DNA from: Frankia nepalensis
GTDB taxonomy: Bacteria > Actinomycetota > Actinomycetes > Frankiales > Frankiaceae
Assembly (NCBI RefSeq): GCF_016786325.1
Contig: NZ_JADWYU010000150.1
Location: 1 to 43,732 of the forward strand
Reading direction: 5' to 3'
DNA: 43,732 bases
Shown here piece after piece: positions 350-23,565 of this stretch. Numbering within the stretch: the stretch's first letter is position 1; each line of letters starts with the position of its first letter. The notes under the pieces were generated by a model. It had not been told where the DNA came from and made no database searches. It saw only the letters and a list, made by a program, of their open reading frames with translations. The translations under genes were made by a program, and so were the position numbers.

Positions 350-509
350 CCCGCGGCTCCTTCCGGGAAGTCAGCACTCAGGCCGTCCGGCGCTCGGGTC
401 GACAGAGATGGTTGCCACCGCGGGTGGCCACGTCCGGCCGTGCCTGGCTGGCGTACCGGGGGACGGGTTGCCCACCCGAGAGGCCGGCGAAGTCCATTGC
501 CTCATCAAT

Positions 510-522
510 ATAGGGACTCTAT
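510..522. promoter_or_regulatory. short imperfect palindrome overlapping the MarR start
   Basis: ATAG-GGACT-CTAT overlaps the proposed MarR start codon at 521. It resembles the two longer TATAGA-N4-TCTATA sites at 2775 and 13797 but its half sites are one base closer. It could be an autoregulatory MarR operator; the match is weak and this is inference. Confidence 0.3.
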
Positions 523-1015
523 GCTTCTCGGCATGAGCCCGCACGCGAACGAGCACTCCAGCGACCTGGAGGGGGGTCTGATCGAGGTTGGTGAGGCGCT
601 GCACCACCTGCTCACCGCCGCCGTGCGTCAGCAGCCGAGGGAGATCAGCCTGACGGCCGCGTCGACGCTGGCCACGATCGAGCGGACCGGGCCGCGTCGC
701 GTCACGGACCTGGCCGTCACCGAGCGGATCACCCAGCCCTCGATGACCGCGCTCGTGACGACCCTGGTGCGCGCCGGCCTGGCCGAGCGCCGGCCGGACC
801 CGCAGGACCAACGTGTGGTGTTGGTGGCGTTGACGCCGGCGGGGGCACGGTACCTGCTGGCTCGTCGCCGCGCGGGCGCGGAGGCGTTCGCCCGGCTGGT
901 CGAGAAGCTTCCGCCTGCTGACGTGGCCGCCCTGCGAGCGGCGGCGCCGGCACTGCGGCACCTGCATGACCTGGATGAGGAACAGCGAACCCGGGCTGTT
1001 GTTGGCGATCCGTAG
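521..1015 (+). CDS. MarR-family transcriptional regulator
   Basis: A 164-residue protein with the MarR winged-helix layout. An N-terminal dimerisation helix (about residues 13-35) is followed by a helix-turn-helix containing LAVTERITQPSMTALVTTL. The wing contains the family signature DPQDQRVVLVALTPAG, and a C-terminal helix follows. MarR proteins usually repress neighbouring catabolic genes and release DNA on binding an aromatic or acyl ligand. I chose the ATG at 521; the ATG at 533 is an alternative, and neither has a strong ribosome site. A short palindrome overlaps the start. It lies between the divergent CoxG remnant and an aldehyde dehydrogenase gene, which are its likely targets. Confidence 0.85.
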   Translation: MLLGMSPHANEHSSDLEGGLIEVGEALHHLLTAAVRQQPREISLTAASTLATIERTGPRRVTDLAVTERITQPSMTALVTTLVRAGLAERRPDPQDQRVVLVALTPAGARYLLARRRAGAEAFARLVEKLPPADVAALRAAAPALRHLHDLDEEQRTRAVVGDP

Positions 1016-2774: not shown

Positions 2775-2796
2775 ATATATAGAGCGTTCTATATAT
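2775..2796. promoter_or_regulatory. 22-bp AT-rich palindromic operator (site A)
   Basis: ATATATAGA and TCTATATAT are exact reverse complements around a 4-base GCGT centre, in otherwise very GC-rich DNA. The left arm also reads as a -10-like TAATAT. It lies about 74 bases before the StrR-like regulator. The same TAGA-N4-TCTA core recurs at 13797-13816 before the amidohydrolase run, suggesting one regulator serves both. The binding protein is unknown; the nearby MarR and GntR proteins are candidates. Confidence 0.6.
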
Positions 2797-2869
2797 CTTC
2801 CCCAGTGGGTGCTAGCCGCCGTCGGCGGTCCTGACGCGCGGCTTCGGAGTACCTGCATGGAGGTGTCCA

Positions 2870-3865
2870 ATGTCGGATGTCGTCAATGTCTGTGAGGTCG
2901 CGGCGCCGGACGGCGAGTCCTCGGTCACGACGGTGCGCCTCGAGCTCCGGAGCTTACGCCCCGGGCCAAGAGTGCGCCTCGGGCGTATCAACCGGAGCTA
3001 CGTCGAAGAACTCACGCAGTGCGGCGGCGGTTGGCCGCCGATCCTGGTCAGACGCGCGGACAACACCATTGTCGATGGTGTCTACCGGTACCTCGCCGCC
3101 CGCGAGCTGGGCCACGCCGACATCGAGTGCCTCTATTACGATGGCGAGTCGGGCCCGGCATTTCTTGAAGCGTTGCGGCTGAACCTTCGCCACGGGCTCC
3201 CACTGTCGCTGCGTGAACGTGAAGCCGCCGCGCGGCGAGTGTTGAGATTCTATCCGGACTGGTCGGACCGCCGGCTCGGTGAGGTATGCGGACTGGCACC
3301 GGGAACGATCGGGCGGTTACGCGGCAGCGACGAGCGCGCACCTGGGGAGAACGAGCAGGTGAACGCCCGGGTGGGCCGCGACGGAAAACGCTATCCCACC
3401 GACCCCGGAGCGTCCAGGGAACGCATCATCAGACTTCTTCGCGAGGAGCCGGACAGGTCGCTGCGCAGCGTGGCGCAGGCCACAGGGACCTCGCCGGCGA
3501 CGGTCCGGGCGGTGAAGGCCGGGCTGGCGAGACCCGCGCAGGCCCTGCCCTCACCGGCCATTCCACCTGTGGCCCGGGCCGCCGTGGCGCAGCCCTCGGT
3601 CACGCTGGTCAAAGACCCTTCGGACGCCGCGGCGTCGCGGACGGATGCCCCCGCCGCGTCGACCGCCGCCGACGACGCGGCGTTCGCCCGCTGGTTCGCG
3701 CGGACGGACATCACCGACGACTGGCGCGACCTGGTGCCGAACGTTCCCGCCACCGCGGCCTTCCAGGTCCTGGACGAAGCCCGCCGGCGGGCGCGGTTGT
3801 GGCTGGAGTTCGCCTCGGCGCTGGAGTCGCGCGCCCGGCCTGCCCAGGTACGACTCGGCGCCTGA
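2870..3865 (+). CDS. StrR-like regulator with ParB N-terminal domain
   Basis: A 331-residue protein. Residues of about 20-115 form a ParB/Srx-like domain, including IVDGVYRYLAARELG and LNLRHGLPLSLREREAAA. A helix-turn-helix follows (RLGEVCGLAPGTIGRL), and a second helix-turn-helix lies near residues 185-215 (SLRSVAQATGTSPATVRAV). The linker is Ala/Pro rich and the C-terminus is helical. This architecture matches StrR/NovG-type activators of antibiotic clusters rather than chromosome-partition ParB: no parA or parS cluster is nearby. The ATG is preceded by GGAGGTG. It probably activates a neighbouring operon. Its presence beside catabolic genes, with no biosynthetic genes in the window, is unusual. 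Confidence 0.8.
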   Translation: MSDVVNVCEVAAPDGESSVTTVRLELRSLRPGPRVRLGRINRSYVEELTQCGGGWPPILVRRADNTIVDGVYRYLAARELGHADIECLYYDGESGPAFLEALRLNLRHGLPLSLREREAAARRVLRFYPDWSDRRLGEVCGLAPGTIGRLRGSDERAPGENEQVNARVGRDGKRYPTDPGASRERIIRLLREEPDRSLRSVAQATGTSPATVRAVKAGLARPAQALPSPAIPPVARAAVAQPSVTLVKDPSDAAASRTDAPAASTAADDAAFARWFARTDITDDWRDLVPNVPATAAFQVLDEARRRARLWLEFASALESRARPAQVRLGA

Positions 3866-4339
3866 GTGCCAGGCGGGCATCGTCGTCGACGGCGTCGGGC
3901 CCGGTCGAACGGGCGACTGCCGCCGCCCACAGGCGCGTTGGTGTTGACCCGGCGGAGGCCCGCACGCCGGTACCCGGCCAGCGCGGGTCGGGTGGGCGAG
4001 GAGCGGCATACGCCCAAGACAAGGAGGTGACGACGAGCGCGGCCCCGGCCCGCCGGGTGGGCGCGTCGGCCAGCCGCAAGGAGGACCGACGGCTGTCGAC
4101 CGGCCCTGGCTGCCACGCCGGCGACCTGACGCTCCCGGGCATGCCGCGCGGCGCGTTTCCGCGTAGCCACGTCACCAGGACGCCCCTGGGACCCAGGACG
4201 TCCACCAGCTCCTCGTCGAAGCCGGGGTCGCCTGAACGACCCGGCGGCCTCGCGCGACCAGCGTGATCCACGACAGCCCAGGCCGCCCGCGCACGCGGGC
4301 GGCCGGATTCCAGCGACAACGGCAGGAAGTGACCTCGAC
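3866..4339. other. 474-base region without a convincing gene
   Basis: Frames are open on both strands because of the high GC content. None has a family-like protein, a good start and a ribosome site together. The only clear structure is the hairpin at 4281-4304. The region could hold the 3' untranslated part of the StrR-like gene and the promoter of the acyl-CoA dehydrogenase run. Confidence 0.55.
4281..4304 (+). terminator. 11-bp hairpin before the first acyl-CoA dehydrogenase
   Basis: GGCCGCCCGCG and CGCGGGCGGCC pair exactly around a 2-base centre (4 unpaired bases in practice). It sits 35 bases upstream of the start codon at 4340. It may end the upstream transcript or act as an attenuator in the leader. 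It has no T tract, as is common in actinobacteria. Confidence 0.45.
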
Positions 4340-5470
4340 ATGGACCTGGGGTTCAGCGACGAGCAGGACATGCTCCGCAAGGTGGCGCGGGACTTCCTGG
4401 CGAAGGAGTGCCCCGAAGCACTGGTCGCCGCCATGGAGACCGACGCGTTGGGATATAGCCCCGACCTGTGGGCGAGGATGGCGGAACTCGGGTGGCAGGG
4501 CCTGGCGATCCCCGAACAGTACGGGGGCTCGGGACTCGGTATCCAGGACCTCGCGGTGCTGCTGGAGGAGTTCGGGCGTGCCCTGGTGCCGGGGCCGTTC
4601 CTATCGACCGTCGTGCACGTCGGCACGGCTCTGCTGCTCGGCGGCAGCGACGACCAGAAGCGCGAGTACCTGCCGCGGCTGGTCAGCGGCGAGCTCGTCG
4701 GCGGCGTCGCCTATCTGGAGGCCTCGGGCCAGCTGCGGCCGGAGGGTGTCCAGCTGGCGGCGACCCCCGACGGCGATGGCTACGTCCTCGACGGCACCAA
4801 GCTGTTCGTCGAGAACGCGGCCGCCGCGAACCTGCTGGTGGTAGCCGCCCGCACCGGTGGAGTGGGAGCCGACGGTCTGTCGCTGTTCCTCGTCGACCCG
4901 ACGATCCCCGGCGTCGCGGTCACCCCGCTGGAGACGCTCGCCGGGGACAAGCAGGCCGAGGTGGCGCTGAGCGGTGTCCGCGTGCCCGCGTCGGCCCTGT
5001 TGGGCGGCGAGGGCCAAGGCGGGCAGGTGCTGGCTCGGGTCCAGCTCGCCGCGGCCGTGGCGGAGTGCGCCTATCTCGTCGGGCTCGTCGCCCAGGACCT
5101 GGACATCACCGTCGACTACGTCAAGCACCGGGAGCAGTTCGGCCGGCCGATCGGCGGCTTCCAGGCTGTGGCGCACAAGGCAGCGGACATGGTGATCGAC
5201 GTGGACGCCTGCAGGTTCGTCATGTACCGCGCCGCGTGGGCGCTCGACGAGGATGAGCCGGACGCCGCCTTCCACGTGAGCGTGGCGAAGAGCTTCATCA
5301 GCGAGGCCAGCCTGCGGGTGGTCTCCCACGGCCAGCAGCTGCACGGCGGCATCGGGTTCACCCGAGAGTACAAGATCCACCGGTATTTCCTGCGGCAGAA
5401 GGCCGGGGAGCTGAGGTGGGGCGACGGCGACTTCCACCGGGCACGGGTCGCGGACGCGCTTGGCATCTAG
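4340..5470 (+). CDS. acyl-CoA dehydrogenase family protein, possible non-catalytic subunit
   Basis: A 376-residue FAD-binding acyl-CoA dehydrogenase fold: helical N-terminus starting LGFSDEQDMLRKVARDFL, a middle beta domain, and a C-terminal helical domain with HREQFGRPIGGFQAVAHKAADM and HGGIGFTREY. The usual catalytic Glu in a YEGTxEIQR-like motif is absent; the sequence continues RQKAGELRWGDGDFHR. The alternative helix-G Glu is also not visible, as that stretch reads LARVQLAAA. In actinobacterial heteromeric enzymes such as ChsE1-ChsE2, one subunit lacks the base. The dehydrogenase at 8951 or 11567 could be its partner. AGGAAG precedes the ATG. It is the first gene of the 4340-12760 run. 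Confidence 0.88.
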   Translation: MDLGFSDEQDMLRKVARDFLAKECPEALVAAMETDALGYSPDLWARMAELGWQGLAIPEQYGGSGLGIQDLAVLLEEFGRALVPGPFLSTVVHVGTALLLGGSDDQKREYLPRLVSGELVGGVAYLEASGQLRPEGVQLAATPDGDGYVLDGTKLFVENAAAANLLVVAARTGGVGADGLSLFLVDPTIPGVAVTPLETLAGDKQAEVALSGVRVPASALLGGEGQGGQVLARVQLAAAVAECAYLVGLVAQDLDITVDYVKHREQFGRPIGGFQAVAHKAADMVIDVDACRFVMYRAAWALDEDEPDAAFHVSVAKSFISEASLRVVSHGQQLHGGIGFTREYKIHRYFLRQKAGELRWGDGDFHRARVADALGI

Positions 5471-5543
5471 GCCTGGTACCGCTCGCCTGGAACCTGCCCA
5501 GGCCTGGCCCCGTCGGCGCCCCAGCCAGAGGAGAAACCCGAAG

Positions 5544-6035
5544 ATGACCTACCCGCCGATGCCGCGGCTCACGGGCCTTACCCGGTTCTTCTGGGAAGGC
5601 GCGGCGCGGCGCTCGCTACTTATCCTGCGGTGCCAGGAATGCGGATACTACACACACCCGCCACGCCCGGTATGTCGTAGCTGCCTTTCCATGGAACTCG
5701 CTCCCGAGGAGGTCTCCGGCCGAGGCGCGATCTACATGTACACGGTCGCGGTCACGGCCTTCCATCCGTTCTGGAAGGACAAGGTCCCCTACACCATCGC
5801 GGTCGTCGAGCTGGCCGAGCAGCCGGGCCTCGGCGTCACGACGAACATCGTCGACTGTCCCGAAAAGCTGCTGCGCGTGGGGCTCCCGGTCGAGGCCACA
5901 TTCGTCGAGACGGCACCCGGACTGACGCTGCCCATGTTCAGGCCAGCCATCCGGGCCACCGGTCCGCGCGCCGCCAGCGAGGTCGTGGACCGGTCAGAAG
6001 ACAGTGCGCGTCCGGCCGCCACGGCCGGCCGGTGA
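5544..6035 (+). CDS. DUF35 OB-fold/zinc-ribbon protein (aldolase partner 1)
   Basis: A 163-residue protein with a rubredoxin-like zinc ribbon of four Cys (C-x2-C-x10-C-x2-C, from CQECGYY) followed by an OB-fold (from GRGAIYMYTVAV). DUF35 proteins bind acyl-CoA and partner with thiolase-like proteins. In steroid side-chain breakdown the DUF35 part of ChsH2 is needed for Ltp2 aldolase activity. The start at 5544 is set by AGAGGAGAAA just upstream. The thiolase-like gene begins 25 bases after the stop. The last 25 residues are an Ala/Arg/Ser-rich tail beyond the fold. Confidence 0.9.
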   Translation: MTYPPMPRLTGLTRFFWEGAARRSLLILRCQECGYYTHPPRPVCRSCLSMELAPEEVSGRGAIYMYTVAVTAFHPFWKDKVPYTIAVVELAEQPGLGVTTNIVDCPEKLLRVGLPVEATFVETAPGLTLPMFRPAIRATGPRAASEVVDRSEDSARPAATAGR

Positions 6036-6060
6036 AGAACGGTCAGGAGGCAGAGCGCCA

Positions 6061-7239
6061 GTGACGAACGACCGCGTGGCGATCGTCGGGGTGGGGTACT
6101 CGACGACGGGCCGGCGCACCGGGCTCAGCTCGCGCCAGCTGGCCGTCCAGGCAGGCAAGGCCGCGCTCGAGGACGCCGGGATGACTCCCGCGGACGTGGA
6201 CGGCGTGACGCTGTCCTGGGACGTCGCCGGACCGGAACCGGAGGGCCTGGAGCCCGTCAACTCGGACGACGCCGCCCACATGCTGGGCATCGACCCGCTG
6301 CACGTGAGCTCCTCGGGCGGCGGGATCGTCTTCGCGCACCCCGCGCGCGAGGCGATCGCCGCCGTCAGGTCGGGCCAGTGCCACACCGCCATCGCCTTCC
6401 GGGTGATCAACCAGCGGCTGAGCGTTCCGGACCTCATGTCCCAGGAGGCACCAGAGTCCGAGCTGGTGCCCGACCACTGGACCGACCCGCAGTTCGCCCG
6501 GCCGTTCGGCCAGGTCCTGCCCGTGCAGTGGCCCGGTGCCCTCACGGCGCAGCGCCACATGGATCTCTACGGCACGACGGAGGAACAGTTCGGAACGCAT
6601 GTGATCAACCAGCGTCACAACGCCTCGCTGAATCCCGAGGCAATCCTGCGTGATCCGATGACACTGGACGACTACTTCGCGAGCCGGTATATCAGCAAGC
6701 CATTGCGCCTGTTCGACTGCGACTACCCGGTGGACTCGGGCTCGGCGGTCATCTTCACCACCGAAGAGCGCGCGCGTGACTTCCGCCAGAAGCCGGTGTT
6801 CGTCGACGCGGCGGCGTTCGCGCTCTCCTGGAAGCCGCGTACCGCGGGGCCGGAAAGCATGGTCTTCACCTGGAACTCGCCGGGCGCCACGGCAGAGCAC
6901 CTCTGGAAGCAGACCGACCTGCGGCCGGGCGACGTCGACACCGTCCAGTTCTACGACGGCTTCACCATCTGGCCGATGATGTGGCTCGAGGCGCTCGGGT
7001 TCTGCGGTCCGGGCGAGTCGGGCCCGCTCATCCAGTCCGGCGCGACCCGGCTGGGCGGTTCGATCCCGCTCAACACCGACGGCGGGGCCTGCAACATGGG
7101 CCGCCGGCACGGCGCGAACTTCTGCATCGAGGCCGTGCGCCAGCTTCGCGGCCAGTGCGGTGACCGGCAGGTCCCCGACGCCAAGGTCGCGCTGTGGACC
7201 AACGCCTACTACTGGGCCTGCCTGCTCACCGCGGACTGA
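6061..7239 (+). CDS. thiolase-like lipid-transfer protein, probable Ltp2-type aldolase 1
   Basis: A 392-residue thiolase-fold protein of the SCP2-thiolase/lipid-transfer group. It starts VTNDRVAIVGVGYS from GTG, with GGAGG upstream. The thiolase nucleophilic Cys is missing: the matching loop reads HVSSSGGGIVFAH. A YDGF motif (Tyr298) precedes the conserved GESGPL, and the late GGACNMGRRHG loop replaces the thiolase GHPxGxxG. These traits match Ltp2 retro-aldolases, which cleave beta-hydroxy side-chain CoA esters using Tyr residues, more than beta-ketothiolases. The DUF35 gene directly before it supplies the expected partner. A degradative aldol cleavage of an acyl-CoA is the likely reaction. 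Confidence 0.85.
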   Translation: MTNDRVAIVGVGYSTTGRRTGLSSRQLAVQAGKAALEDAGMTPADVDGVTLSWDVAGPEPEGLEPVNSDDAAHMLGIDPLHVSSSGGGIVFAHPAREAIAAVRSGQCHTAIAFRVINQRLSVPDLMSQEAPESELVPDHWTDPQFARPFGQVLPVQWPGALTAQRHMDLYGTTEEQFGTHVINQRHNASLNPEAILRDPMTLDDYFASRYISKPLRLFDCDYPVDSGSAVIFTTEERARDFRQKPVFVDAAAFALSWKPRTAGPESMVFTWNSPGATAEHLWKQTDLRPGDVDTVQFYDGFTIWPMMWLEALGFCGPGESGPLIQSGATRLGGSIPLNTDGGACNMGRRHGANFCIEAVRQLRGQCGDRQVPDAKVALWTNAYYWACLLTAD

Positions 7240-7325
7240 CCGCCCTCCCGTTCCATGACCTGATTCCCCGCCCAAACCACCCGGAGCGGCTCTGTGAACC
7301 GCGCCGGCCAGCCGATGGAGGCGAC

Positions 7326-7748
7326 TTGGCTACGTCGTCGTCGAGGCTCCTCCCGGAGCCGACTCCGGAGACCGCCCCCTTCTGGGAAGGCTGCCGGCGC
7401 CACGAGTTGCGTATCCAGCGATGCAACGACTGCGACCGGTTCTACTTCTACCCACGACCGTACTGTCCGCACTGCCTTTCCGACGACACAGAGTGGATGA
7501 CCGTGTCTGGCGAGGGAATCCTGCGGACCTACGTGATCAACCATCGGCCCATGCCCGGTTTCGCGGGTGAGGCGCCCTATGTGACCGCGATCGTGGAGCT
7601 CGCCGAGGGGCCGCGACTGATGACCAACCTCGTCAACGTCGAGCCCGTGCCCGCGAACCTGCCGGTCGGACTGGCGGTGACAGTCGTCTTCGACGACGTC
7701 ACCGACACCGTCACGCTGCCCCGGTTCCAGCCGAAAGACAGGCGGTGA
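7326..7748 (+). CDS. DUF35 OB-fold/zinc-ribbon protein (aldolase partner 2)
   Basis: A 140-residue protein with the zinc ribbon C-x2-C-x10-C-x2-C (CNDCDRFYFYPRPYCPHC) and the OB-fold that follows. The TTG at 7326 is the best start because GGAGG lies four bases before it; longer readings add a low-complexity, unconserved stretch. Its stop overlaps the GTG of the next gene (GTGA, 7745-7748), so the two are probably translated together and form one complex. It is the second of three such pairs in the window and diverges clearly from the first. Confidence 0.88.
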   Translation: MATSSSRLLPEPTPETAPFWEGCRRHELRIQRCNDCDRFYFYPRPYCPHCLSDDTEWMTVSGEGILRTYVINHRPMPGFAGEAPYVTAIVELAEGPRLMTNLVNVEPVPANLPVGLAVTVVFDDVTDTVTLPRFQPKDRR

Positions 7749-8902
7749 CGGTGCCGGTCGAGCTACGCGGCGCGGTCGCTGTCGTCGGCGCCGCCGAGAC
7801 GGACCGGATCGGTGTCGTCCCGGACATGTCCGCGATCCAGCTGCACGCGAACGCGGCCCGCAACGCGCTGCGCGACGCGGGCCTGGACAAGGGCCAGATC
7901 GACGGTGTCGCCTCCGCAGGGATGTCCCCGGTCGCCGTCGCCGACTACCTGGGCATCGAACCGTCCTACGTCGACGGCACGTCGATCGGCGGCGGCTCGT
8001 TCATGCTCCACGTCGCGCACGCGGTCGCGGCGCTGACCGTCGGCTACTGCAACTACGTGCTCATCACCCACGGGGAGAGCGGCCGCTCCCGGCTCGGCGG
8101 GGAGGGCTGGGCGGGTCTGCCACCCACGTCAGCAGAGGGCCAGTTCGAGGTTCCCTACGGCGCGCTCGGCGCGGCGTCGACGTTCACGGTCCCGATCGTC
8201 GGGCACATGGCGAAGTACGGGACCACCGAGGAGCAGATCGCCTCGGTGGCGGTGGCGACCCGGGCCTGGGCCGCCCGCAACAGCCGGGCGATGAAACGCG
8301 CCCCGATCACCGTCGAGGACGTGCTGACCTCACGACTCGTCGCGTGGCCGATCCACCTGCTCGAATGCTGCCTGGTCACCGACGGCGGCGGCGCGCTCAT
8401 CCTGACGACCGCGGAGCGGGCCCGCGACCTGTCCCGGCCGCCGGTCTACATCCTCGGCACCGGCGAAGGGGTCGAGAACGTCGGGATCTCCACGATGCGC
8501 GACCTCACCGACGCCCGCGCCTCCCGGCGCTCGGGCGAACGGGCGTTCCGCCTCGCCGGCCTCGGCCCCGCCGACGTCGACCACCTGATGCTCTACGACG
8601 CGTTCGCCCACACTCCGATGTTCGCGCTGGAGGCGTTGGGCTTCGTCAAACCGGGGGAGAGCGGCCCGTTCTTCGCGGAGGGCCGCTCGGCACCAGGCGG
8701 TGACCTACCGGTCAACACCAACGGCGGTGGTCTGTCCTACACCCACACCGGCCGCCTCGGAATGTTCGCGATGCAGGAGTCCGTGCGTCAACTGCGTGGC
8801 GAGGCGGAAGCCCAGGTGCCGGGGATCCGCACCAGCCTCGCCCACGGGATCGCGCACTTCTTCTCCGCCGCCGGAACCGTGATCATGTCGAACCAGCTAT
8901 GA
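7745..8902 (+). CDS. thiolase-like lipid-transfer protein, probable Ltp2-type aldolase 2
   Basis: A 385-residue thiolase-fold protein read from GTG at 7745, overlapping the DUF35 stop by four bases. The Cys region reads DGTSIGGGSFMLH, so the thiolase nucleophile is absent. YDAF (Tyr284) and LEALGFVKPGESGPF follow, and the late loop is NTNGGGLSYTHTGRLG. As with its neighbour at 6061, this points to an Ltp2-like retro-aldolase or acyl-CoA-binding protein rather than a thiolase. It is distinct from the product of 6061, so the two modules probably act on different chain-length or side-chain intermediates. Confidence 0.85.
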   Translation: MTVPVELRGAVAVVGAAETDRIGVVPDMSAIQLHANAARNALRDAGLDKGQIDGVASAGMSPVAVADYLGIEPSYVDGTSIGGGSFMLHVAHAVAALTVGYCNYVLITHGESGRSRLGGEGWAGLPPTSAEGQFEVPYGALGAASTFTVPIVGHMAKYGTTEEQIASVAVATRAWAARNSRAMKRAPITVEDVLTSRLVAWPIHLLECCLVTDGGGALILTTAERARDLSRPPVYILGTGEGVENVGISTMRDLTDARASRRSGERAFRLAGLGPADVDHLMLYDAFAHTPMFALEALGFVKPGESGPFFAEGRSAPGGDLPVNTNGGGLSYTHTGRLGMFAMQESVRQLRGEAEAQVPGIRTSLAHGIAHFFSAAGTVIMSNQL

Positions 8903-8950
8903 CCGGCCGGCACGCCGCCGCGGCGGAGTTCCGGACGGCAGGGAGAGGCC

Positions 8951-10120
8951 ATGGACTTTCGTTTCGCCCCTGAGCAGGAGGAGTTCCGCGCTCAGGTCCG
9001 CGCATTCGTGGAGAGCGAGCTCCCCGTCGAGTGGGAGCGGATCGACCCTGAGGGGGAACGCGCCTGGGAGATCACCTGCGAGTTCCAGCGCAAGCTGGCG
9101 GACAAGAAGTGGCTGGCGATGGCCTGGCCTCCCGCACTCGGCGGCCTCGGCGCCGACCTGCTGACCCAGCTGATCTACCACGAGACGATGGACTACTACC
9201 ACGCGCCGGCGTTCACGATGGCCGTCGCCTGGGTCGGCCCGGCGGTCATGCTGTACGGCAACGAAGAGCAGAAGGCTCGCCTGCTTCCCCGGATGGCCAC
9301 CGGCGAGGACGTCTACTGCACCCTCTACTCCGAGCCGGGCGCGGGCTCGGACCTGGCGGCGATGCAGACGAAGGCCGTGCTCGACGGCGACGACTACGTC
9401 ATCACCGGCCAGAAGGTGTGGACGTCGGGGGCGCACCACGCGAACCTCGGCTGGCTCGCCGCCCGCACCGACCCGACGGCGAGCAAGCACCGGGGCCTGT
9501 CGACGTTCGTCGTCGACGTGGACTCGCCGGGCCTCACCGTCCGACCATTGATCAACATGGCTGGTCAGCACGCGTTCAACGAGGTCTTCTTCGACGGGGT
9601 GCGGGTACCGAAGGCCAACCTCATCGGCGAGCCAGGCCGCGGCTGGTACAACATCGCCACCGCCCTGGAGTTCGAGCGGTCCGGCATCGAGTGGATCGCC
9701 AAGGCCCGCCGCCGCCTCGACCAGATCATCGCCCACGTGCGCGAGCACCGGGACATTCTCGAGAACAACCCGCAACTGCGCTTCGAACTCGCGGACCGAG
9801 CCATTGAGGTCGAGGTCGGCACACTGCTGTGCTACCGGACGATCCATCTGGCCATCCAGGGCAAGGCGATGACCTACGAGGCCTCCGCGTCGAAGGTCTA
9901 CAACTCCGAGCTCACCCAGCGGGTCGCCCAGACCGGAATGAAGGTCTTCGGCCCGTACGCCGGTCTCGGCCGCGACGACCCACGCTCGCCGCTGACGGGC
10001 CAGCTGACCCACAGCATCCAGAGCGGCTACCTGTGGACCTTCGCGAACACGATCGGCGCCGGGTCGAGCGAGATCCAGCGGAACATCATCGCCAGCCGTG
10101 GCCTCGGCCTGCCCCGGTAG
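8951..10120 (+). CDS. acyl-CoA dehydrogenase
   Basis: A 389-residue acyl-CoA dehydrogenase. Visible are the middle-domain motif YSEPGAGSDLAAMQTKA, ITGQKVWTSGAHHA and the C-terminal IGAGSSEIQRNIIA. The residue normally Glu in YEGT is Ala, as in isovaleryl/long-chain types. A Glu in LEFERSG (Glu242) is placed where those enzymes carry their helix-G base. It therefore looks catalytically competent and suited to branched or bulky acyl-CoA. GGGAGAGG precedes the ATG. It would introduce the 2,3-double bond and pass electrons to an electron-transfer flavoprotein. Confidence 0.92.
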   Translation: MDFRFAPEQEEFRAQVRAFVESELPVEWERIDPEGERAWEITCEFQRKLADKKWLAMAWPPALGGLGADLLTQLIYHETMDYYHAPAFTMAVAWVGPAVMLYGNEEQKARLLPRMATGEDVYCTLYSEPGAGSDLAAMQTKAVLDGDDYVITGQKVWTSGAHHANLGWLAARTDPTASKHRGLSTFVVDVDSPGLTVRPLINMAGQHAFNEVFFDGVRVPKANLIGEPGRGWYNIATALEFERSGIEWIAKARRRLDQIIAHVREHRDILENNPQLRFELADRAIEVEVGTLLCYRTIHLAIQGKAMTYEASASKVYNSELTQRVAQTGMKVFGPYAGLGRDDPRSPLTGQLTHSIQSGYLWTFANTIGAGSSEIQRNIIASRGLGLPR

Positions 10121-10130
10121 TCCCGGCGTT

Positions 10131-10152
10131 CGGCGCGGCGACAGCCGCGCCG
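10131..10152 (+). terminator. candidate hairpin after acyl-CoA dehydrogenase
   Basis: CGGCGCGGC pairs exactly with GCCGCGCCG around a GACA loop, 10 bases after the stop at 10120. It could partly end transcription or stabilise the upstream message within the run. There is no T tract. Confidence 0.4.
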
Positions 10153-10249
10153 CGCGGCCGACCAGCGTCGCCGGGCGCCAGCACGCCTGGGCAACGGCAC
10201 GGCTGAGGCAGCGCGGCGCAGACAAGGACGAGAAGGGATTGACGGTGCG

Positions 10250-11461
10250 ATGGACCCGCTTCTGCAGGGTGTGAAGGTCATCGAGCTCGGCGAGTTCGTG
10301 TTCATACCCTCAGCGGCCGCCGTCCTTGCCGACTGGGGAGCCGACGTCATCAAAGTCGAGCACCCAGAACGGGGAGACACGCTGCGCGGCCACCTGAGCA
10401 TCTTCGCGGCCCACGGCTACGACACCGGTGACTTCAACTACCTGGTCGAACAGGCCAACCGCGGCAAGCGCAGCATCGGCCTCGACCTGGCGCATCCCGA
10501 GGGGCGCGAGATCTTCTTGCGACTTGTCGCCGAGGCCGATGTCCTGCTGACGAGCCTGCTGGAGCCCTCCCGCGAGCGGCTGGGAATCACCTACGACGAC
10601 CTGAAGGAGATCAATCCCCGGCTCATCTACGCGCGCGGCCACGGGCAGGGGCAGAGCGGGCCCGCCGCCTACCAGGGCGGCATCGACACCGTCGCCTTCT
10701 GGGCCCGCAGTGGCATGGGATACATGTTCAGCGACCCCGCGGACCCCAAGCTGCCCCAGCGCCAGGGATTCGGCGACCTGACCTGCGGCATGTTCCTGGC
10801 CGGCGGCATCGCGGCGGCGCTCTTTCGTCGGAGCCTGTCCGGTGAGGGCAGCCTCGTGGACGTGTCGCTGCTCGGCTCGGCGATGTGGATGCTCGCCCCC
10901 GACATCGTCGCCTCGGACTTCATGGGACGGCTGCCCGCGCCCCCCAGCTTCGGACACGTGCCGCCGAACCCCCTGAGCGCTCTGTACCGGACGGGTGACG
11001 GGCGCAGCCTGGTCCTGGGAATGCTCAAGTCGGACCAGTACTGGCCGGGCTTCTGCCACGCCCTCGGTCGGCCAGATCTCGCGGACCATCCCGACTACGA
11101 CGCGTTCGACAAACGAACCGGCAACGCCGAGCTGTTCCGCATCATCACCGAGACCCTGCTGTCGGCGCCGCTCGCGCACTGGCGCGAACGGTTCGACGCG
11201 GCGAACTGCCTGTGGTCGGCCGTGCAGACGCCGCTGGAGGTGGGCGACGACCCGCAGTCGGTGGCCAACGGGTACCTCGTGGAACACCCCGGTCGCCCTG
11301 GCGCGCATCTCACGGCGAGCCCCGTCCAGTTCAACAACTCCAGGCTCCGACTCCGCGGCGGCGCGCCTGAGGTTGGTCAGCACACCGAGGAGATCCTGCT
11401 GGAGCTCGGCATGGACTGGCCCGAGATCGTGGCGCTGAAGGACAACGCCGTCGTCACATGA
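10250..11461 (+). CDS. CaiB/BaiF family (class III) CoA-transferase
   Basis: A 403-residue class III CoA-transferase. The N-terminus reads LLQGVKVIELGEFVFIPSAAAVLADWGADVIKVEHP, of which the ELGEF and GADVIKVE parts are family hallmarks. The catalytic Asp is kept in FGDLTCG (Asp176), where formyl-CoA transferase forms its aspartyl-CoA anhydride. It moves CoA from a donor acyl-CoA to a free acid in the cytosol. AGAAGGGA lies upstream of the ATG. Its place between two acyl-CoA dehydrogenase genes suggests it activates the acid that the dehydrogenases then oxidise. Donor and acceptor cannot be read. Confidence 0.92.
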   Translation: MDPLLQGVKVIELGEFVFIPSAAAVLADWGADVIKVEHPERGDTLRGHLSIFAAHGYDTGDFNYLVEQANRGKRSIGLDLAHPEGREIFLRLVAEADVLLTSLLEPSRERLGITYDDLKEINPRLIYARGHGQGQSGPAAYQGGIDTVAFWARSGMGYMFSDPADPKLPQRQGFGDLTCGMFLAGGIAAALFRRSLSGEGSLVDVSLLGSAMWMLAPDIVASDFMGRLPAPPSFGHVPPNPLSALYRTGDGRSLVLGMLKSDQYWPGFCHALGRPDLADHPDYDAFDKRTGNAELFRIITETLLSAPLAHWRERFDAANCLWSAVQTPLEVGDDPQSVANGYLVEHPGRPGAHLTASPVQFNNSRLRLRGGAPEVGQHTEEILLELGMDWPEIVALKDNAVVT

Positions 11462-11566
11462 GGCCCGTCGCTGGCCAGGGCCGCGCGGCACACCGGGCAC
11501 CTCCAGCTCGCGCTGCCTCGCCTCGACATTGACAACGACCGACGTGAGACAGGCTGGACGGCGACG

Positions 11567-12760
11567 ATGACGACGGGTGACAGGACACGGGACCTCTATG
11601 CCGGGACCGTGCTGGACGATGAGCAGCGCGCGTTGCGCGACATGGTCGCGCGCCTCGCGGCGGAGCGTTACGCCCCGCACGCGCGCGACTGGGACCGCGA
11701 GCGCCGGCCGTTGGACGTGTCCGAGCGCAAGTTCCTCGCCGGCCTCGGCCTGCTCGGCCTCACCATCCCCACCCGATATGGCGGTGAGGGACGGCCGCTG
11801 CTCGAAGCGTTGATCGTGCTGGAGGAGCTGGCCAAGGCGAGCCCGATCGCCGCGTGGCCAGTGTTCGAGGCGTGTACGGGGCCGGCCCGGGTCATCGAAC
11901 AGTTCGGCACCGACGAGCAGAAGGCCCGCCTGCTGCCGCCCGTCGTGGCCGGAGAGAAGACGATCGCCGTGTCCATCTCGGAGCCGGAGGCCGGTTCAGC
12001 GGCCACTGACATGACGACCTCGGGGCATGTCGAGGGCGACACCGTCGTCGTCAACGGCGTCAAGCGCTGGTGCTCGGGCGCGGGGCACTCCGAGCAGTAC
12101 CTCGTCTACCTCCGGCTCGGCGAGGCGCGCGGCGGCAAGGCCATCGGCGCGGTGCTCGTCGACGGCGACACACCGGGCGTGAGCTTCGGTCCGCAGGAGA
12201 ACCTGATGGGCTTCCGGGGTATCTGCTCGGCCGACATCTTCCTCGACGACGTCCGCGTCCCGCTCGCCAATCTCATCGTCCCGGCCGGCGGGTTCTCGAA
12301 ACTATTCACCGCGTTCTCCATCGAGCGGCTGGGTAACACCACCATGTCGCTGGCGGTGGCCCAGACCGCCCTTGACCGTTCGGCCCGCTACGTGATCGAG
12401 CGTCGGCAGTTCGGCCACCAGGTCGCGGACTTCCAACTGGTCCAGGGAGCGATCGCGGACATGGTGATCCGAGTTGAGTCGGCGCGCATGCTCCTGTACG
12501 CGGCGGCGCGGGAGGCGGGAACGGGCGCGCCCAGCGCGCTCGCCGCGTCCGTGGCCAAGTGCGCCGCGAACGAGGCGGCACAGTTCGTCTCCGGCCTGGC
12601 CATCCAGCTGCACGGCGGGTACGGCTACTCGGAGGAGTACGAGATCGAGCGGCTCCACCGAGACTCCCACGGCTGGGCGCTCGCCGGCGGCACGCTGAAC
12701 ATCCAGAAGATTCGCATCGCCTCGGAATACCTCGGCATGCGTTTCGACCAGCGCCGGTAG
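11567..12760 (+). CDS. acyl-CoA dehydrogenase
   Basis: A 397-residue acyl-CoA dehydrogenase with VSISEPEAGSAATDM, the substrate/flavin segment RRQFGHQVADFQLVQGAIADM and HGGYGYSEEYEIERLHRD. The YEGT-type Glu is replaced (LAGGTLNIQKIR). A Glu in SIERLGN (Glu253) sits in the helix-G position used by isovaleryl/long-chain enzymes. It should be an active oxidase of an acyl-CoA, or pair with the apparently base-less protein encoded at 4340. It is the last gene of the run; the GntR gene follows after a 324-base gap. Confidence 0.92.
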   Translation: MTTGDRTRDLYAGTVLDDEQRALRDMVARLAAERYAPHARDWDRERRPLDVSERKFLAGLGLLGLTIPTRYGGEGRPLLEALIVLEELAKASPIAAWPVFEACTGPARVIEQFGTDEQKARLLPPVVAGEKTIAVSISEPEAGSAATDMTTSGHVEGDTVVVNGVKRWCSGAGHSEQYLVYLRLGEARGGKAIGAVLVDGDTPGVSFGPQENLMGFRGICSADIFLDDVRVPLANLIVPAGGFSKLFTAFSIERLGNTTMSLAVAQTALDRSARYVIERRQFGHQVADFQLVQGAIADMVIRVESARMLLYAAAREAGTGAPSALAASVAKCAANEAAQFVSGLAIQLHGGYGYSEEYEIERLHRDSHGWALAGGTLNIQKIRIASEYLGMRFDQRR

Positions 12761-13084
12761 CCGGGATCGCCTCCGGCCTCCTAAACCCGTGAACAGCGCG
12801 AAGGGAGCCGGCGGCGAGCATCAAATCTTGCATTCAATCCTGGATAACCATATTCTGGCGCCGTCGTGGCGAGCTCAACATGAGCATGGTGGCTCTGGTA
12901 CGTACCGGAGGTGACCGCTGGGAGGCATGGCACCCGTTCTGCCGAGCACGGTCCCGGGCCGGATCCGTCCGCGAGCCCGCGGGGCCCGTAGCCGGCCAGC
13001 GCGACGCGCGGTCAGAAGCGCCGGGTCTGGATCTCTGGCGTGAAACGGGCCGACAGCGGCCGCCCTGACGGTGAGAAGAGTGGC
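12761..13084. other. 324-base region before the GntR gene
   Basis: No gene is supported here. The AT-richer part at 12820-12860 probably holds the promoter of the GntR gene and includes an element (12828-12849) that resembles one in the divergent promoter at 28181. Confidence 0.5.
12828..12849. promoter_or_regulatory. candidate GntR-gene operator
   Basis: The stretch TTGCATTCAATCCTGGATAA contains the palindrome ATCC-T-GGAT. It shares TTG, AT, C and ATCCTG-AT in the same order with the stretch at 28181-28200. Two sites are too few for certainty; autoregulation by the FCD-type protein is inference. Confidence 0.3.
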
Positions 13085-13765
13085 GTGACGGACAGCACTG
13101 CCGAGATGAACGCGACCGCCAAGGCGACGAGCGCTCTTCGTGACATGGTCATGCGGCGCCGGCTCATGCCCGGCCAGCAACTGCGCCAGGAACAGCTCGC
13201 GGACCGGCTGAACTTGTCGAGGAGTCCGCTACGCGAGGCCCTGCGCATTCTTGAAACGGAGGGCCTGGTCCGCTATGTCGTCAACCAGGGCTACTTCGTG
13301 GCCGAGTTCGACGAGTCCGAGCTTCGGCAGATCTACCTGATGCGCCGGCTGCTGGAGACGGAACTGCTGCGCACGGCGCGCCGGCCGACTGAGGAGGACC
13401 TTGCCGCCCTTCGCGCCCACAACCAGGTCGTCGAGGCCGGCGGGACCGCTGGTTCCATCACCCAGATGCTGGTAGCGAACCGACGGTTCCACTTCGCGCT
13501 CCTCGGGCTCTCCCCACTGCGCCTGGTCCGCCGCGAGGTCGAGCGGCTGTGGCATCTGTCGGAGGCCTACCGGGCGGGCTACCTCTGGCTCCCCGAGACG
13601 CGCGCACGGATCGTCGCCGAGCACGCCATGATGATCGACGCGCTGGCCGCGTTCGACATCGACCGCTTGGTGCATACCGCCGAACAACACCGGAGCGCGT
13701 CCGAACAAACCGTTGTCGGTCTCTTCGCGGACGTGACCGGCGGTGACGGAGAGAGCGCATCCTGA
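13085..13765 (+). CDS. GntR-family regulator, FCD type
   Basis: A protein of about 226 residues. The winged helix-turn-helix (about residues 15-75) contains RQEQLADRLNLSRSPLREAL and LETEGLVRYV, the GntR signature. An all-helical FCD ligand domain follows, with AEHAMMIDALAAFD and a late EQHRSASEQ helix. Such proteins sense small organic acids, often with a metal, and mostly repress catabolic operons. I chose the GTG at 13085; an upstream GTG at 13040 or the ATG at 13109 are possible because the ribosome site (AGAAGAG) is weak. It lies between two catabolic runs and may control either. Confidence 0.85.
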   Translation: MTDSTAEMNATAKATSALRDMVMRRRLMPGQQLRQEQLADRLNLSRSPLREALRILETEGLVRYVVNQGYFVAEFDESELRQIYLMRRLLETELLRTARRPTEEDLAALRAHNQVVEAGGTAGSITQMLVANRRFHFALLGLSPLRLVRREVERLWHLSEAYRAGYLWLPETRARIVAEHAMMIDALAAFDIDRLVHTAEQHRSASEQTVVGLFADVTGGDGESAS

Positions 13766-13796
13766 CCCTGGACACCTGGATGACCGCTTGCTACTG

Positions 13797-13816
13797 TAGA
13801 TAGAGTCATCTATATA
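13797..13816. promoter_or_regulatory. AT-rich palindromic operator (site B)
   Basis: TAGATAGA-GTCA-TCTATATA is an 8-bp inverted repeat with one mismatch and the same TAGA-N4-TCTA core and spacing as site A at 2775. It is followed by TATAAAT, which may be part of a -10 element. It lies about 450 bases before the amidohydrolase gene and just after the GntR gene. Confidence 0.55.
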
Positions 13817-13948
13817 AATCTTGCCCGTGGGCGCGAACCCGTGAACCAGGGTCCAAGGCATGATTATCGTTTTCCTGGAATGGCGCGCCGGCCCAAGGCC
13901 TCGGGCTAGCGGAAGCTGGTTGGCGAACGTTGGCCGCAGGGCACGCGT

Positions 13949-13985
13949 GGGTGTTCACCTGGCCAAAGCGAGCAGGTGAACACCC
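13949..13985. promoter_or_regulatory. 13-bp perfect inverted repeat with 11-base loop
   Basis: GGGTGTTCACCTG and CAGGTGAACACCC are exact reverse complements around GCCAAAGCGAG. It lies in the probable leader of the amidohydrolase run, about 270 bases before the start. It may be a leader hairpin (attenuator) or a pair of protein-binding half sites. No T tract follows. Confidence 0.55.
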
Positions 13986-14258
13986 GGCTCCCGAGAGAAT
14001 GTGGCCTCTCGGCTGCGGTGGCGCGCCCCACCCGTTGGAGCGGGAATGGAGGAAAAGCGTCGCCGCTCGTGAGGATTGAACGCGAGTGCCAGAGGAACGG
14101 TGCGCCAGGGGCGAGTGAGCCGCCATTCACGGAGATATTCTCCCGCGCCTACTGAGTATTTCCCTTCGGGGTGCGCCCATATTCGTCGCCACCTCGGCCG
14201 CCGGCGTGGCCGGGCTGGCGGAGAAGGCTTACCCACCAGCCACGCTTGGAGGTCCCAC

Positions 14259-15518
14259 ATGACCGTGACGGAGACCGGGACGTCGACCGATGTACTGGCG
14301 GGCGTGAAGATCATCGACTGTGACGCCCACTGGACCGAGCCGCCGGACCTCTGGACCGCGCGTGCCCCGAAGTCGATGAAGGACCAGCTGCCGTACCAGA
14401 CGGTCGTCGACGGCATGACCCTGTGGTTCATCAACGGGCAGTCCTGGGCCAGCACGGGCGGGAACACGATCGCCCGTGACCGACAGAAGGTCCTAGGCTC
14501 CCATGTGGTGCAGCCCTTCGAAGCCATCGATGCCTCGTCGTGGGACGTGCGTGAGCGGCTCGCGATCCTCGACGAGATGGGTGTCCACGCGCAGGTCCTC
14601 TACCCGAACGGTATCGGGTTCTCGTCGAACCACATCTTCGCCATCGAGGACCCGAAACTGCGCGAAACGGTCCTGACGATCTACAACGACTACATGGTCG
14701 AGGTGCAGCGGGCCTCGGGCGACCGCCTGTTTCCGCAGGTCATCCTGCCCATCTGGGACATGGACCTGACCGTCCGGGAGATGGCCAAGCGCATCGAGCA
14801 GGGGATCCGCGGTTTCACCCTCTCGGACAAACCTGAGCTGCTCGGCCTACCTGAGCTGCCGGAGACCTACTTCGACCCGATGTGGGATCTGTTCAACGAG
14901 AGCGGCACGGTGCCGAACTTCCACATTGGCTCGGGGTTCCGGCGCGAGGACGTCGAGGCCAGCCGGCAGGGGGTGGCCTTCCGGACGGCCAAGGCGGCAC
15001 AGGCCGGCCCGCCCCCGACGGTCGCCCCGCCGTCCTGGCGCTGGTTCGGCCGGCAGCGCACACTCGCGGTGTCCGCCTGCCTGGCGCACGTCAGCAACAT
15101 GCGCATCGTCGCCAACCTCTGCAACAGCGACCTGTTCGACCGCTACCCGAAACTGAAGATCGTGTCGGCCGAGAGCGGGATCGGCTGGGTGCCGTTCCTG
15201 CTCGAGGACATGGACTACCAGTACCACGAGATGGTCACCACGCCCGAGGAACTCGGGCTCGCGAAGCGGCTGCCGTCGGAGTACTTCCGTGACCACCTCT
15301 ACGTGATGTTCTGGTTCGAGAAGTCGGCGCCCGCGAAGCTGATCGACGACATAGGTGTGAACAACGTGCTCGTCGAGACCGACGTGCCGCACCCAACCTG
15401 CCTCTACCCGAACACCCGCGAGCGGCTCGCCGACGCCGTGGCGACGCTCGACAGCCACTCCCGGCGTCGCATCCTGCAGGACAACGCCGCCGAACTCTAC
15501 AAGATCCCACTCGGCTGA
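14259..15518 (+). CDS. amidohydrolase-family metal-dependent hydrolase/decarboxylase
   Basis: A 419-residue TIM-barrel protein of the amidohydrolase-2 (ACMSD-like) family. The first metal-site motif is IIDCDAHWTEP (Asp22, His24). The late strand reads LVETDVPHPTCLYP, where the Asp is the usual fourth-position metal/catalytic residue. The middle stretch VSAESGIGWVPFLLEDMDYQ is typical of the actinobacterial subgroup. Members hydrolyse or decarboxylate ring and side-chain acids in the cytosol. TTGGAGG before the ATG at 14259 decides the start, against a longer open frame from 14076. It heads the run to 24100. Confidence 0.88.
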   Translation: MTVTETGTSTDVLAGVKIIDCDAHWTEPPDLWTARAPKSMKDQLPYQTVVDGMTLWFINGQSWASTGGNTIARDRQKVLGSHVVQPFEAIDASSWDVRERLAILDEMGVHAQVLYPNGIGFSSNHIFAIEDPKLRETVLTIYNDYMVEVQRASGDRLFPQVILPIWDMDLTVREMAKRIEQGIRGFTLSDKPELLGLPELPETYFDPMWDLFNESGTVPNFHIGSGFRREDVEASRQGVAFRTAKAAQAGPPPTVAPPSWRWFGRQRTLAVSACLAHVSNMRIVANLCNSDLFDRYPKLKIVSAESGIGWVPFLLEDMDYQYHEMVTTPEELGLAKRLPSEYFRDHLYVMFWFEKSAPAKLIDDIGVNNVLVETDVPHPTCLYPNTRERLADAVATLDSHSRRRILQDNAAELYKIPLG

Positions 15519-21138: not shown

Positions 21139-23565
21139 ATGAACACATCACGCACACGTTCGCCGCTCGCTGACCTGAAGGTGCTGGAGCTGGCATCGGG
21201 CACCGCCGGGCCGATGGCCGGCATGATGTTCGCCGACTACGGGGCCGAGGTGGTGAAGGTCGAGCCGCCCACGGGGGACTGGGCCCGCGGCACGCGTGGC
21301 TTCCAGATGTGGAACCGCGGGAAGCGGAGTGTGGTGCTGGACCTGGCGAGTTCGGCCGCCGATCGCGAGGCGTTGCGAGCGCTCGTCCGGCGAAGTGATG
21401 TCGTGCTGACCAACTACCGGCCGGGGGTGGCCGAGCAGCTTGGCGTCGGCGAGGCAGAGGTCAGACGGCTCAATCCCACGGCCGTGTGCTGCGCGATCTC
21501 CGGGTTCGGCCCGTTGGTCGAATGCGCGGGTCTACGGGCCTACGAGGGCATCGTCGCGGCGAAGGCCGGGAAGATGGTCGGACTGGACGCGCTCAGCGGC
21601 GCGGCCCCGGACTTCGCCGGTGGCCGGCCGATCTACTCGGCCGCACCGGTCGCCGGGTTCGCCGCGGGCCAGCTGGCCTTCCAGGGCATCGTCGCGGCCC
21701 TGCTGGAACGGGCCAGGACCGGCCGCGGCAGATATGTCGAAACGAGCCTCCTGCAGGGCGCGATCACCGCGACGATGCGCCAGGATCTCCGGCGCGCGGA
21801 GCTGGAAGGCCCGGTGAACGGACGCGCCGCGGCCTCGGGCGCGCCGGGTGGACCGTCCGTCCAGCTGCGTGGGATCGCGCTCACCTTCCTCACCGCGCGG
21901 TGCGCCGACGGCGGGTGGATCCAGATGTGTGCCCGACAGGACCATCACTTCAGGAGCTGGATGCGGGCGCTGGGCCTCGACTGGGTCCTGACCGACCCCC
22001 GGTACGTCGACGGCCCGCTGGCGTTCAGGACCCTGCGGGACATCGAGGACCTGGAGCGCGTCATCCGCAAGCGGATGAGCGAGTGTACCCAGGCGGAGTG
22101 GATGAGCCTGTTCATCGAGCACGACGTCGGTTCCGACCCGTTCCTCGATTTCGACGGCTTCCTCGCCCATCCCCAGCTGACCGCCAACGAGCGGGTTGTC
22201 GAGGTCGCCGACCGCGAGCTCGGTCCGGTGCGGCAGCTCGGTCCGCTCGTCAACGTGAACGGGGCGGGCGTCGGTGTCGAGCGTGGCGCGCCACTGCTCG
22301 GCGAGCACACAGCGGAGGTTCTCGACGAGGCCCGCGCCGTGCGCGGCGCGGGCGGCGACCAGGTCGCAGGCCAACCCCAGATACCGGCCGAAAGGACGGG
22401 CGGGCCGCTGGCGGGCATCGTCGTCGTAGAGCTCGCCACCTACCTCGCCGGCCCGCTGGGCGGCACGCTGCTGGCCGAGATGGGCGCCCGCGTCATCAAG
22501 GTCGAACCGATGGAAGGAGACGCGTTCCGCCGTCTTGGCCTCCAGTTCGTCCACCTGCAGCACGGCAAGGAAAGTATCGCGCTCAACCTCAAGTCGTCGG
22601 GCGGCAAGGAGGTCCTGCGCCGGCTGGTGCGAGAGGCGGACGTCTTCTTCCACAACTTCCGTGGAGGTCCCGTCGAGCGGCTTGGCTGCGACTTCGTCTC
22701 GATCAGCGCGATCAACCCACGGATCGTGTACGTGAACGCCGCCGCCTATGGCTCACGCGGCCCGGAGGCCAACAGGACCGCGTTCCATTCGACGCCGAAC
22801 GCCCTGTCCGGCGGCGGGATCCTGCAGGCTGGCCGGGGCAACGTCCCGGTGGACGACTCGTACCCGGACCCGTGCTCCGGTATCGCGGTCGCCTCCGCCA
22901 TTCTCCTCGGGCTGTTCGGCCGTGGACGGTCGGGGCGAGCCCAGCACCTGGAGACGACCATGCTGGCCAGCACCGGCTATGTCCACTCGTCGGACCTGGT
23001 GTCCTACGAGGGAGCGCCTTCGCGCCTTGAGGTCGATCCGGAGCAGCAAGGCCTGCACGCGCTTTATCGCCTGTACGAGTGCTCGTCCGGCTGGCTGTTC
23101 GCCGCGGTCGTCGGAGACGCGGAATGGCGCCGATTCGCGAGGGCCCTCGGGCATGGCGAGTGGTGCGAGGACCCCAGGTTCGCCGATGCCGCGGCGAGGC
23201 TGTCCGCCGACGCGGACCTTGCCGCGCTGGTCGCTCCGGTGCTGCAGGAACGGACGGCTAAGGAGTGGGCGGCGGCGCTGGCCGCGGTGGACGTCGCCGC
23301 GGTCCAGGCCGACGAGCGCGGCTTCGAGGAGTTCCTCATCCACAGTGGCCTCGTCAGCGCGGACGAACACCCGGAGCATGGGAAGTACTGGCGGCTGCCG
23401 CCTCGGGTGACATTCGACGGCGTCGGACCTGACCGTCGGCCCGCGACCGCGCTGGGCGAGTCGACCGTGGCCGTCCTCGAGGAACTCGGGTACGGCCCGC
23501 AGGAGATCGCGGCGCTGTGCGCCGAGCGCGCCGTCTTGGCCGACGGTCCCAAGGCCAGAGGCTGA
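21139..23565 (+). CDS. fused double class III CoA-transferase, first active site altered
   Basis: An 808-residue protein made of two CaiB/BaiF domains in tandem (about residues 10-400 and 420-795). Each has its own start signature: LKVLELASGTAGPMAG then GAEVVKVEPP, and IVVVELATYLAGPLGG then GARVIKVEPM. Class III enzymes are normally interlocked homodimers of ~400-residue chains, so the fusion could be a covalent heterodimer. In domain 1 the catalytic Asp position is Gly173 (PVAGFAAG); domain 2 keeps Asp577 (YPDPCSG). One functional site per chain is therefore expected. Similar double-length proteins are known in actinobacteria. It follows the third aldolase pair. Confidence 0.9.
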   Translation: MNTSRTRSPLADLKVLELASGTAGPMAGMMFADYGAEVVKVEPPTGDWARGTRGFQMWNRGKRSVVLDLASSAADREALRALVRRSDVVLTNYRPGVAEQLGVGEAEVRRLNPTAVCCAISGFGPLVECAGLRAYEGIVAAKAGKMVGLDALSGAAPDFAGGRPIYSAAPVAGFAAGQLAFQGIVAALLERARTGRGRYVETSLLQGAITATMRQDLRRAELEGPVNGRAAASGAPGGPSVQLRGIALTFLTARCADGGWIQMCARQDHHFRSWMRALGLDWVLTDPRYVDGPLAFRTLRDIEDLERVIRKRMSECTQAEWMSLFIEHDVGSDPFLDFDGFLAHPQLTANERVVEVADRELGPVRQLGPLVNVNGAGVGVERGAPLLGEHTAEVLDEARAVRGAGGDQVAGQPQIPAERTGGPLAGIVVVELATYLAGPLGGTLLAEMGARVIKVEPMEGDAFRRLGLQFVHLQHGKESIALNLKSSGGKEVLRRLVREADVFFHNFRGGPVERLGCDFVSISAINPRIVYVNAAAYGSRGPEANRTAFHSTPNALSGGGILQAGRGNVPVDDSYPDPCSGIAVASAILLGLFGRGRSGRAQHLETTMLASTGYVHSSDLVSYEGAPSRLEVDPEQQGLHALYRLYECSSGWLFAAVVGDAEWRRFARALGHGEWCEDPRFADAAARLSADADLAALVAPVLQERTAKEWAAALAAVDVAAVQADERGFEEFLIHSGLVSADEHPEHGKYWRLPPRVTFDGVGPDRRPATALGESTVAVLEELGYGPQEIAALCAERAVLADGPKARG

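Follow-up and report, generated by a model that had tools for sequence, protein, structure and literature searches.

StrR-type transcriptional activators, among them StrR, CmlR, Bbr, Dbv4 and AoStrR1, belong to antibiotic clusters; PMC8306873 and PMC8406272 print the StrR consensus as GTTCGActG(N)11CagTcGAAc, while PMC6022936 and PMC7852140 give GTCCAR(N)17TTGGAC or GTCCAN18TTGGAC for glycopeptide relatives. Promoters whose -10 sequence and transcription start lie under a repressor dyad are likewise a described type. Here we report on a 43,732-nt stretch of Frankia nepalensis DNA (contig NZ_JADWYU010000150.1, positions 1 to 43,732; hereafter the window), in which two AT-rich operator-like dyads, one ahead of a strR-like gene and one ahead of an amidohydrolase operon, occur together with StrR-type boxes in a catabolic gene cluster. 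The box before the amidohydrolase is of the same design as those of the StrR-type activators, with GTTC arms and an 11-nt spacer, and unlike the glycopeptide sites; in contrast to the antibiotic clusters, however, the genes led by such boxes are catabolic (amidohydrolases, P450). The dyads are placed as in the repressor-dyad promoters but form a pair, separated by 11 kb, within a single cluster, with candidate binders only. Duplicated promoter-operators and StrR boxes are both of already known kinds, and what is new, judged from the sequence, is a likely StrR-type regulon on a catabolic cluster.

A preliminary description of this DNA had proposed that the same AT-rich operator, TAGA-N4-TCTA, stands at both promoters. 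The two sites proved to be its only exact matches in the window, and no enrichment was seen when up to two mismatches were allowed (24 versus 34.3 expected). Site 1 (2776-2795) is the dyad TATATAG-AGCGTT-CTATATA, in its wider form ATATATAGA-GCGT-TCTATATAT at 2775-2796, and overlaps the -10 sequence and the expected transcription start before the strR-like gene; site 2 (13797-13816) reads TAGATAGAGTCATCTATATA, that is TAGATAG-AGTCAT-CTATATA, and neither was assigned to a strand. In the 10.7 Mb of the window's own genome (G000, 398 contigs) TAGA-N4-TCTATATA was exact only at these two sites, with four further places on other contigs at one mismatch (reversed control, 1), so that random genome-wide occurrence, which had been named as counting against the proposal, was not what we found. 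Furthermore, the refined 20-bp dyad TANATAG-N6-CTATNTA matched exactly at five places across 393 genomes belonging to the class (reversed control, 9): sites 1 and 2, one before the orthologous strR-like gene of the congener G002, and two elsewhere. As the pattern was derived from the first three, its exact match there is by construction, whereas its rarity elsewhere is not. The G002 dyad, TACATAG-ATCAGA-CTATGTA (5004332-5004351), lies 55 nt upstream of the strR-like gene, compared with 74 nt in the window, and differs from site 1 in both arms (TACATAG/CTATGTA versus TATATAG/CTATATA) with the symmetry kept. That the dyads have no dedicated regulator, being AT-rich promoter DNA to which at most a nucleoid protein, for example Lsr2, binds, would agree with their overlap with -10 sequences, which are AT-rich in any case, and with the preference of Lsr2 for AT-rich DNA given in the abstract of PMC8406272; we consider this quite improbable in view of the symmetrical changes of the arms between congeners, the fixed N6 spacing and the rarity across the 393 genomes.

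Upstream of the dyads we identified a shared promoter which the preliminary description did not contain, just as it did not contain the StrR-type repeat beside site 2. On the forward strand, the strR-like gene is preceded by TGGACA (2750-2755), N17 and TAATAT (2773-2778), with the same hexamers and spacing in G002; the promoter scan returned this one match (2750-2778) against 0.0 expected. Site 2 follows a promoter-like sequence on the same strand (13769-13797), with TGGACA (13769-13774), N17 and TACTGT (13792-13797). The common module is therefore TGGACA-N17-TAnTrT followed by TAnATAG-N6-CTATnTA over the presumed start. On both strands of the window and of 57 kb of G002, TGGACA-N17-TAnTnT occurred at the three sites only, and the combined pattern TGGACA-N17-TANTNT-N0-8-ATAG-N6-CTAT, likewise derived from the sites, had three matches in the complete G000 and G002 genomes, all of them these sites (control, 0). 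Moreover, the local alignment of the two window promoters, which begins at the -35 and extends about 15-20 nt beyond the dyad, scored 47, the maximum among 1000 mononucleotide shuffles being 39, and this suggests that one promoter is a copy of the other. The two promoters, whose module occurs in this exact form only there in the genome, are likely co-regulated.

Several results weigh against such a common control. Within the 57 kb of the G002 cluster only site 1 had a counterpart at up to three mismatches, and no exact match for site 2 appeared in the next 15 kb of G002 either, so that the inclusion of the site 2 promoter in a shared regulon is supported by one genome only. In addition, the promoter scan of 13740-14280 gave no hit, the site 2 promoter falling below the threshold because its -10, TACTGT, is too far from the consensus; the scan of two G002 intergenic stretches also returned nothing. 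The earlier proposal of a regulon linking regulator and catabolic genes is supported in part: the same rare promoter-operator module stands at both places, but site 2 lacks a G002 counterpart and the conserved link looks to be the StrR-type box described below.

The features of both elements led us to infer a mechanism to which we give an even chance as a whole: two copies of a promoter-operator module, with a dimeric repressor over the start and a StrR-like activator on a box of its own. The repressor, most likely the MarR protein of the cluster, would bind the AT-rich dyad of 20 bp, whose overlap with the -10 and the expected start puts it where a repressor would be expected to sit, and would shut both the strR-like promoter and the one that precedes the amidohydrolase operon. 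Once an inducer has released it, the StrR-like protein could bind 13953-13981 and activate the amidohydrolase operon. In its own genome this operon would then receive two inputs, a feed-forward arrangement. If so, the cluster offers a testable regulon for a large uncharacterised set of degradation genes and suggests a StrR-type activator working outside antibiotic synthesis.

The candidate repressor, the MarR-family regulator P0002 (533-1015, forward strand, 160 amino acids), scored 41.9 bits for the Pfam MarR domain (cut-off 24.6; scanned as the longer open reading frame 203-1015). Its closest NCBIfam model is that of the Rv0880-type MarR (NF052438), whose score of 71.8 bits is well below the cut-off of 220 and does not place P0002 in that family; solved structural relatives are 9u7b and 4yif, and no Rv0880 operator was found in the passages of PMC5526998 that were consulted. 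The promoter of the MarR gene (497-525, forward strand), with hexamers assigned by eye, reads TTGCCT-N17-TATGCT and carries the dyad TATA-GGGACTC-TATG (509-523) over the -10, the same as in G002. The start codon lies a few bases past the -10, which gives the gene a leaderless look. Across several actinobacterial families, members of this MarR clade bear an AT-rich dyad, YATA-N7-KATR, over their own promoter (window 497-533; L072, L096-L113). We counted it in the 165-nt promoter stretch of 24 of 24 MarR loci with at least 47% identity (window and G002 included) and nowhere in the flanks; the pattern was spotted by eye and counted on the same loci, many of them close relatives, and the count is therefore descriptive. 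The half-sites of site 1 (TATA/TATA) and of the G002 dyad (CATA/TATG) fit YATA/KATR.

The assignment of the dyads to this protein faces several difficulties. Sites 1 and 2 and the G002 site have eight bases between the half-sites, compared with seven in the clade, and the N8 spacing was seen in only one of the 24 loci, there besides N7; furthermore, the left half-site of site 2, GATA, misfits YATA. Among MarR homologues below 47% identity the pattern was present in 5 of 26, and other half-site spacers also scored (9 in 15/22, 3 in 7/22) because MarR promoters are AT-rich. MarR is hence the best local candidate for the repressor, with a spacing off by one base, and we put it forward tentatively, at somewhat below an even chance.

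It is about evenly poised whether the dyads are instead bound by another regulator, either the FCD-type GntR encoded just before site 2 or a protein encoded outside the window. The difference between N8 and N7 speaks for this, as do the end of gntR 31 nt upstream of site 2 and its retention in G002. That GntR protein (13040-13765, forward strand) exceeded the cut-offs of both Pfam domains (FCD 62.0 bits, cut-off 24.3; GntR 55.3 bits, cut-off 27) and is assigned to the family; an action of GntR through its own promoter was rejected, however, as no dyad lies near gntR in G002. Nor were homologues of the three local regulators found in the 40 kb surrounding two near-matches 15 kb apart in the congener G005, where Pfam annotated ten open reading frames as enzymes, as one binding protein or not at all, and within 1.5 kb of the two other exact dyads there were only chance-level matches to the local regulators. 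We regard GntR as an unlikely repressor of the dyads and a regulator encoded outside the window as about as likely as MarR. The StrR-like protein was set aside as the binder of the AT-rich dyads, the repeat of its family being of another kind. Two near-identical AT-rich dyads, TAGAAACATCTATATC and TAGAAACGTCTATATC, were also noticed near the starts of two other contigs of the genome (G000:C185:119-134 and G000:C372:132-147), and are possibly one repeat split by the assembly.

The StrR-like regulator P0001 (2870-3865, forward strand, 331 amino acids) has a 69% identical orthologue in G002 and an HTH_AsnC-type domain just above the Pfam cut-off (27.5 bits, cut-off 27); it matched no NCBIfam family and no PDB entry, and a related-locus search with P0001 alone found none. 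Homologues at E <= 1e-20 were present in 34 of the 393 genomes, a count that includes G002 and the genome of the window, and Streptomyces is one of the genera that have them. The comparison of P0001 with family members was made with a Streptomyces homologue, to which it is 35% identical and with which it shares invariant columns (alignment A1). Its presumed target before the amidohydrolase (13949-13985, no strand) is an inverted repeat of 13 bp, perfect in both arms and with a spacer of 11 nt, whose core at 13953-13981, GTTCACCTG-N11-CAGGTGAAC, lies 277 nt before the amidohydrolase ATG and agrees with the StrR consensus in 7 of 9 positions per arm, or in 8 when A is accepted at position 5. A GTTC-type repeat with an 11-nt spacer is accordingly found among the likely targets of P0001. 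In the genome scan 13953-13981 was the sole place without mismatch, the next, with two mismatches, lay inside the StrR-like gene and five places had three; the reversed control gave 3 in all.

The box is conserved in G002, where its counterpart differs by one mismatch and where the cluster has four boxes, one within the strR-like gene and three intergenic, of which one separates gntR from a P450 gene and the others precede the amidohydrolase and a further amidohydrolase gene. A generalised pattern, derived from these G000 and G002 boxes, matched exactly once in G000 and four times in G002, always in the cluster, and not at all in six other congeners; with one mismatch, matches outside the cluster were at control level. 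Furthermore, in the 33 other homologue loci, spacer 11 accounted for five GTTC-armed repeats and 16 other spacers together for one. At 7/9 arm matches, spacer 11 was in excess in G002 (5, others 0-3; one of the five not StrR-like). It looks as if the conserved link from the StrR-like gene to the catabolic operons is this separate StrR-type box and not the AT-rich dyad.

This view has points against it as well. At 7/9 arm matches the window itself shows no spacer-11 excess (1, others 0-4), and two of the five GTTC-armed spacer-11 repeats are one sequence, while two are in-gene. The in-gene box of the window matches the generalised pattern with one mismatch, a level which the reversed control reaches (2 in G000, at most 3 per genome). 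In addition, the G002 intergenic boxes (L028 16426-16434 and 17824-17832; L029 19010-19018) all start 7 nt after a TAG stop, and the distance from the gntR stop to the box is 187 nt in the window, with site 2 in between, versus 7 nt in G002. Their terminator-like placement behind stop codons raises the question of whether the inverted repeats are transcription terminators instead of binding sites. We consider this improbable, because the scanned stretches yielded no terminator call and no T run, because the repeats all have spacer 11 and arms of one common sequence fitting the printed StrR consensus, and because the same repeat occurs mid-gene in family members, where a terminator would truncate the gene.

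This mid-gene repeat recurs in the StrR family. In the window it is a weak box at 3336-3364 (no strand; GCGCACCTG-N11-CAGGTGAAC, 7/9 arm matches), located at the in-gene position of the family. In a first set of 35 homologue loci, 11, among them those of the window and G002, had a StrR-type box at the place corresponding to 3336-3364, and two more reached 7/9 with other arms. A second set, the best 80 of 587 confirmed loci (L120-L199), overlaps the first in part. The best-scoring box was exactly 38 nt before the GRDG codons in 46 of these 80, and boxes scoring at least 13 were at the 38-nt position in 41 cases and elsewhere in 12. Strong spacer-11 repeats numbered 42, compared with 0-9 for each of twelve other spacers; 26 of them were in-gene, all 26 at that offset, while a strong box outside the gene was found in 13 of the 80 loci of 17 kb.

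Whether the in-gene box is a by-product of conserved linker amino acids and not a DNA signal was addressed by synonymous resampling with the amino acids fixed. At least 7/9 arm matches were observed in 34 of 80 genes versus 2.18 expected (maximum 8 in 2000), and in a thinned set in 23 of 55 versus a null mean of 1.16 (maximum 6 in 2000); mean arm symmetry was 5.26 in the 80 genes, falling to 3.75 (sd 0.117) after resampling. Likewise, when right arms were redealt among the thinned genes, mean symmetry fell from 5.27 to 4.17 (maximum 4.76). Off-consensus arms can remain complementary, for instance GCGCGACTG/CAGTCGCGC in L137 and L140. The by-product explanation can draw on linker residues such as ST..PQSN, which recur among box-bearing genes, on the window copy with just 7/9 arm matches and on the relatedness of the box-bearing genes: on a tree of 82 proteins, built with the linker left out, the box label is clustered, needing 17 changes against a shuffled mean of 27, and thinning lowers this relatedness without removing it. 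With both symmetry and 7/9 counts far below those observed once codons are resampled, we hold it to be very improbable. With the centre unchanged, the adjacent odd spacers 13 and 15 come close to spacer 11 (20 genes each versus 23) because the arms overlap.

These data point to selection on DNA within the coding sequence of StrR-family genes. The box might serve as a roadblock for feedback or in the control of an internal promoter. More broadly, and at not quite an even chance, StrR-family activators as a class would keep their operator within the gene that encodes them, at a fixed linker place before GRDG, so that the linker residues partly mirror the DNA site; protein bound at this place would bring about negative feedback as a roadblock, or else govern an internal promoter, and one branch would have been recruited to run a catabolic cluster that an AT-rich repressor module controls. 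A literature search at title and abstract level found no report of an in-gene StrR box, nor did a term search in PMC10886168 return anything; the recurrent box is new unless the original papers (1995 StrR, 2005 strR, 2007 Dbv4) already report it. A recurrent in-gene operator is thereby pointed to in a family used for switching on silent antibiotic clusters, and the in-gene site would be lost if such regulators were recoded synonymously for overexpression.

The window holds the MarR gene (533-1015), an aldehyde dehydrogenase, the StrR-like gene, acyl-CoA dehydrogenases, ChsH2-type OB proteins with thiolase partners, CoA-transferases, GntR and the amidohydrolase-led run, and a large part of the window aligns with G002. 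The amidohydrolase heading the run downstream of site 2 (14259-15518, forward strand; Amidohydro_2 76 bits, cut-off 26.4, scanned from 14076) is 84% identical in G002, and at E <= 1e-100 it was found in 2 of 58 genomes, namely its own and G002. Between gntR and the amidohydrolase, where the window has site 2, G002 has a P450 gene (L028 16598-17824) that is preceded by a StrR-type box of its own. An 808-amino-acid protein encoded at 21139-23565 contains two CoA-transferase family III stretches and is apparently a tandem CoA-transferase fusion. Finally, a 33-nt inverted repeat at 24191-24257 (88% complementary, 1 nt between the arms) is situated between the gene at 23690-24100 and an opposite-strand gene at 24307-25986 and is probably a two-way terminator.

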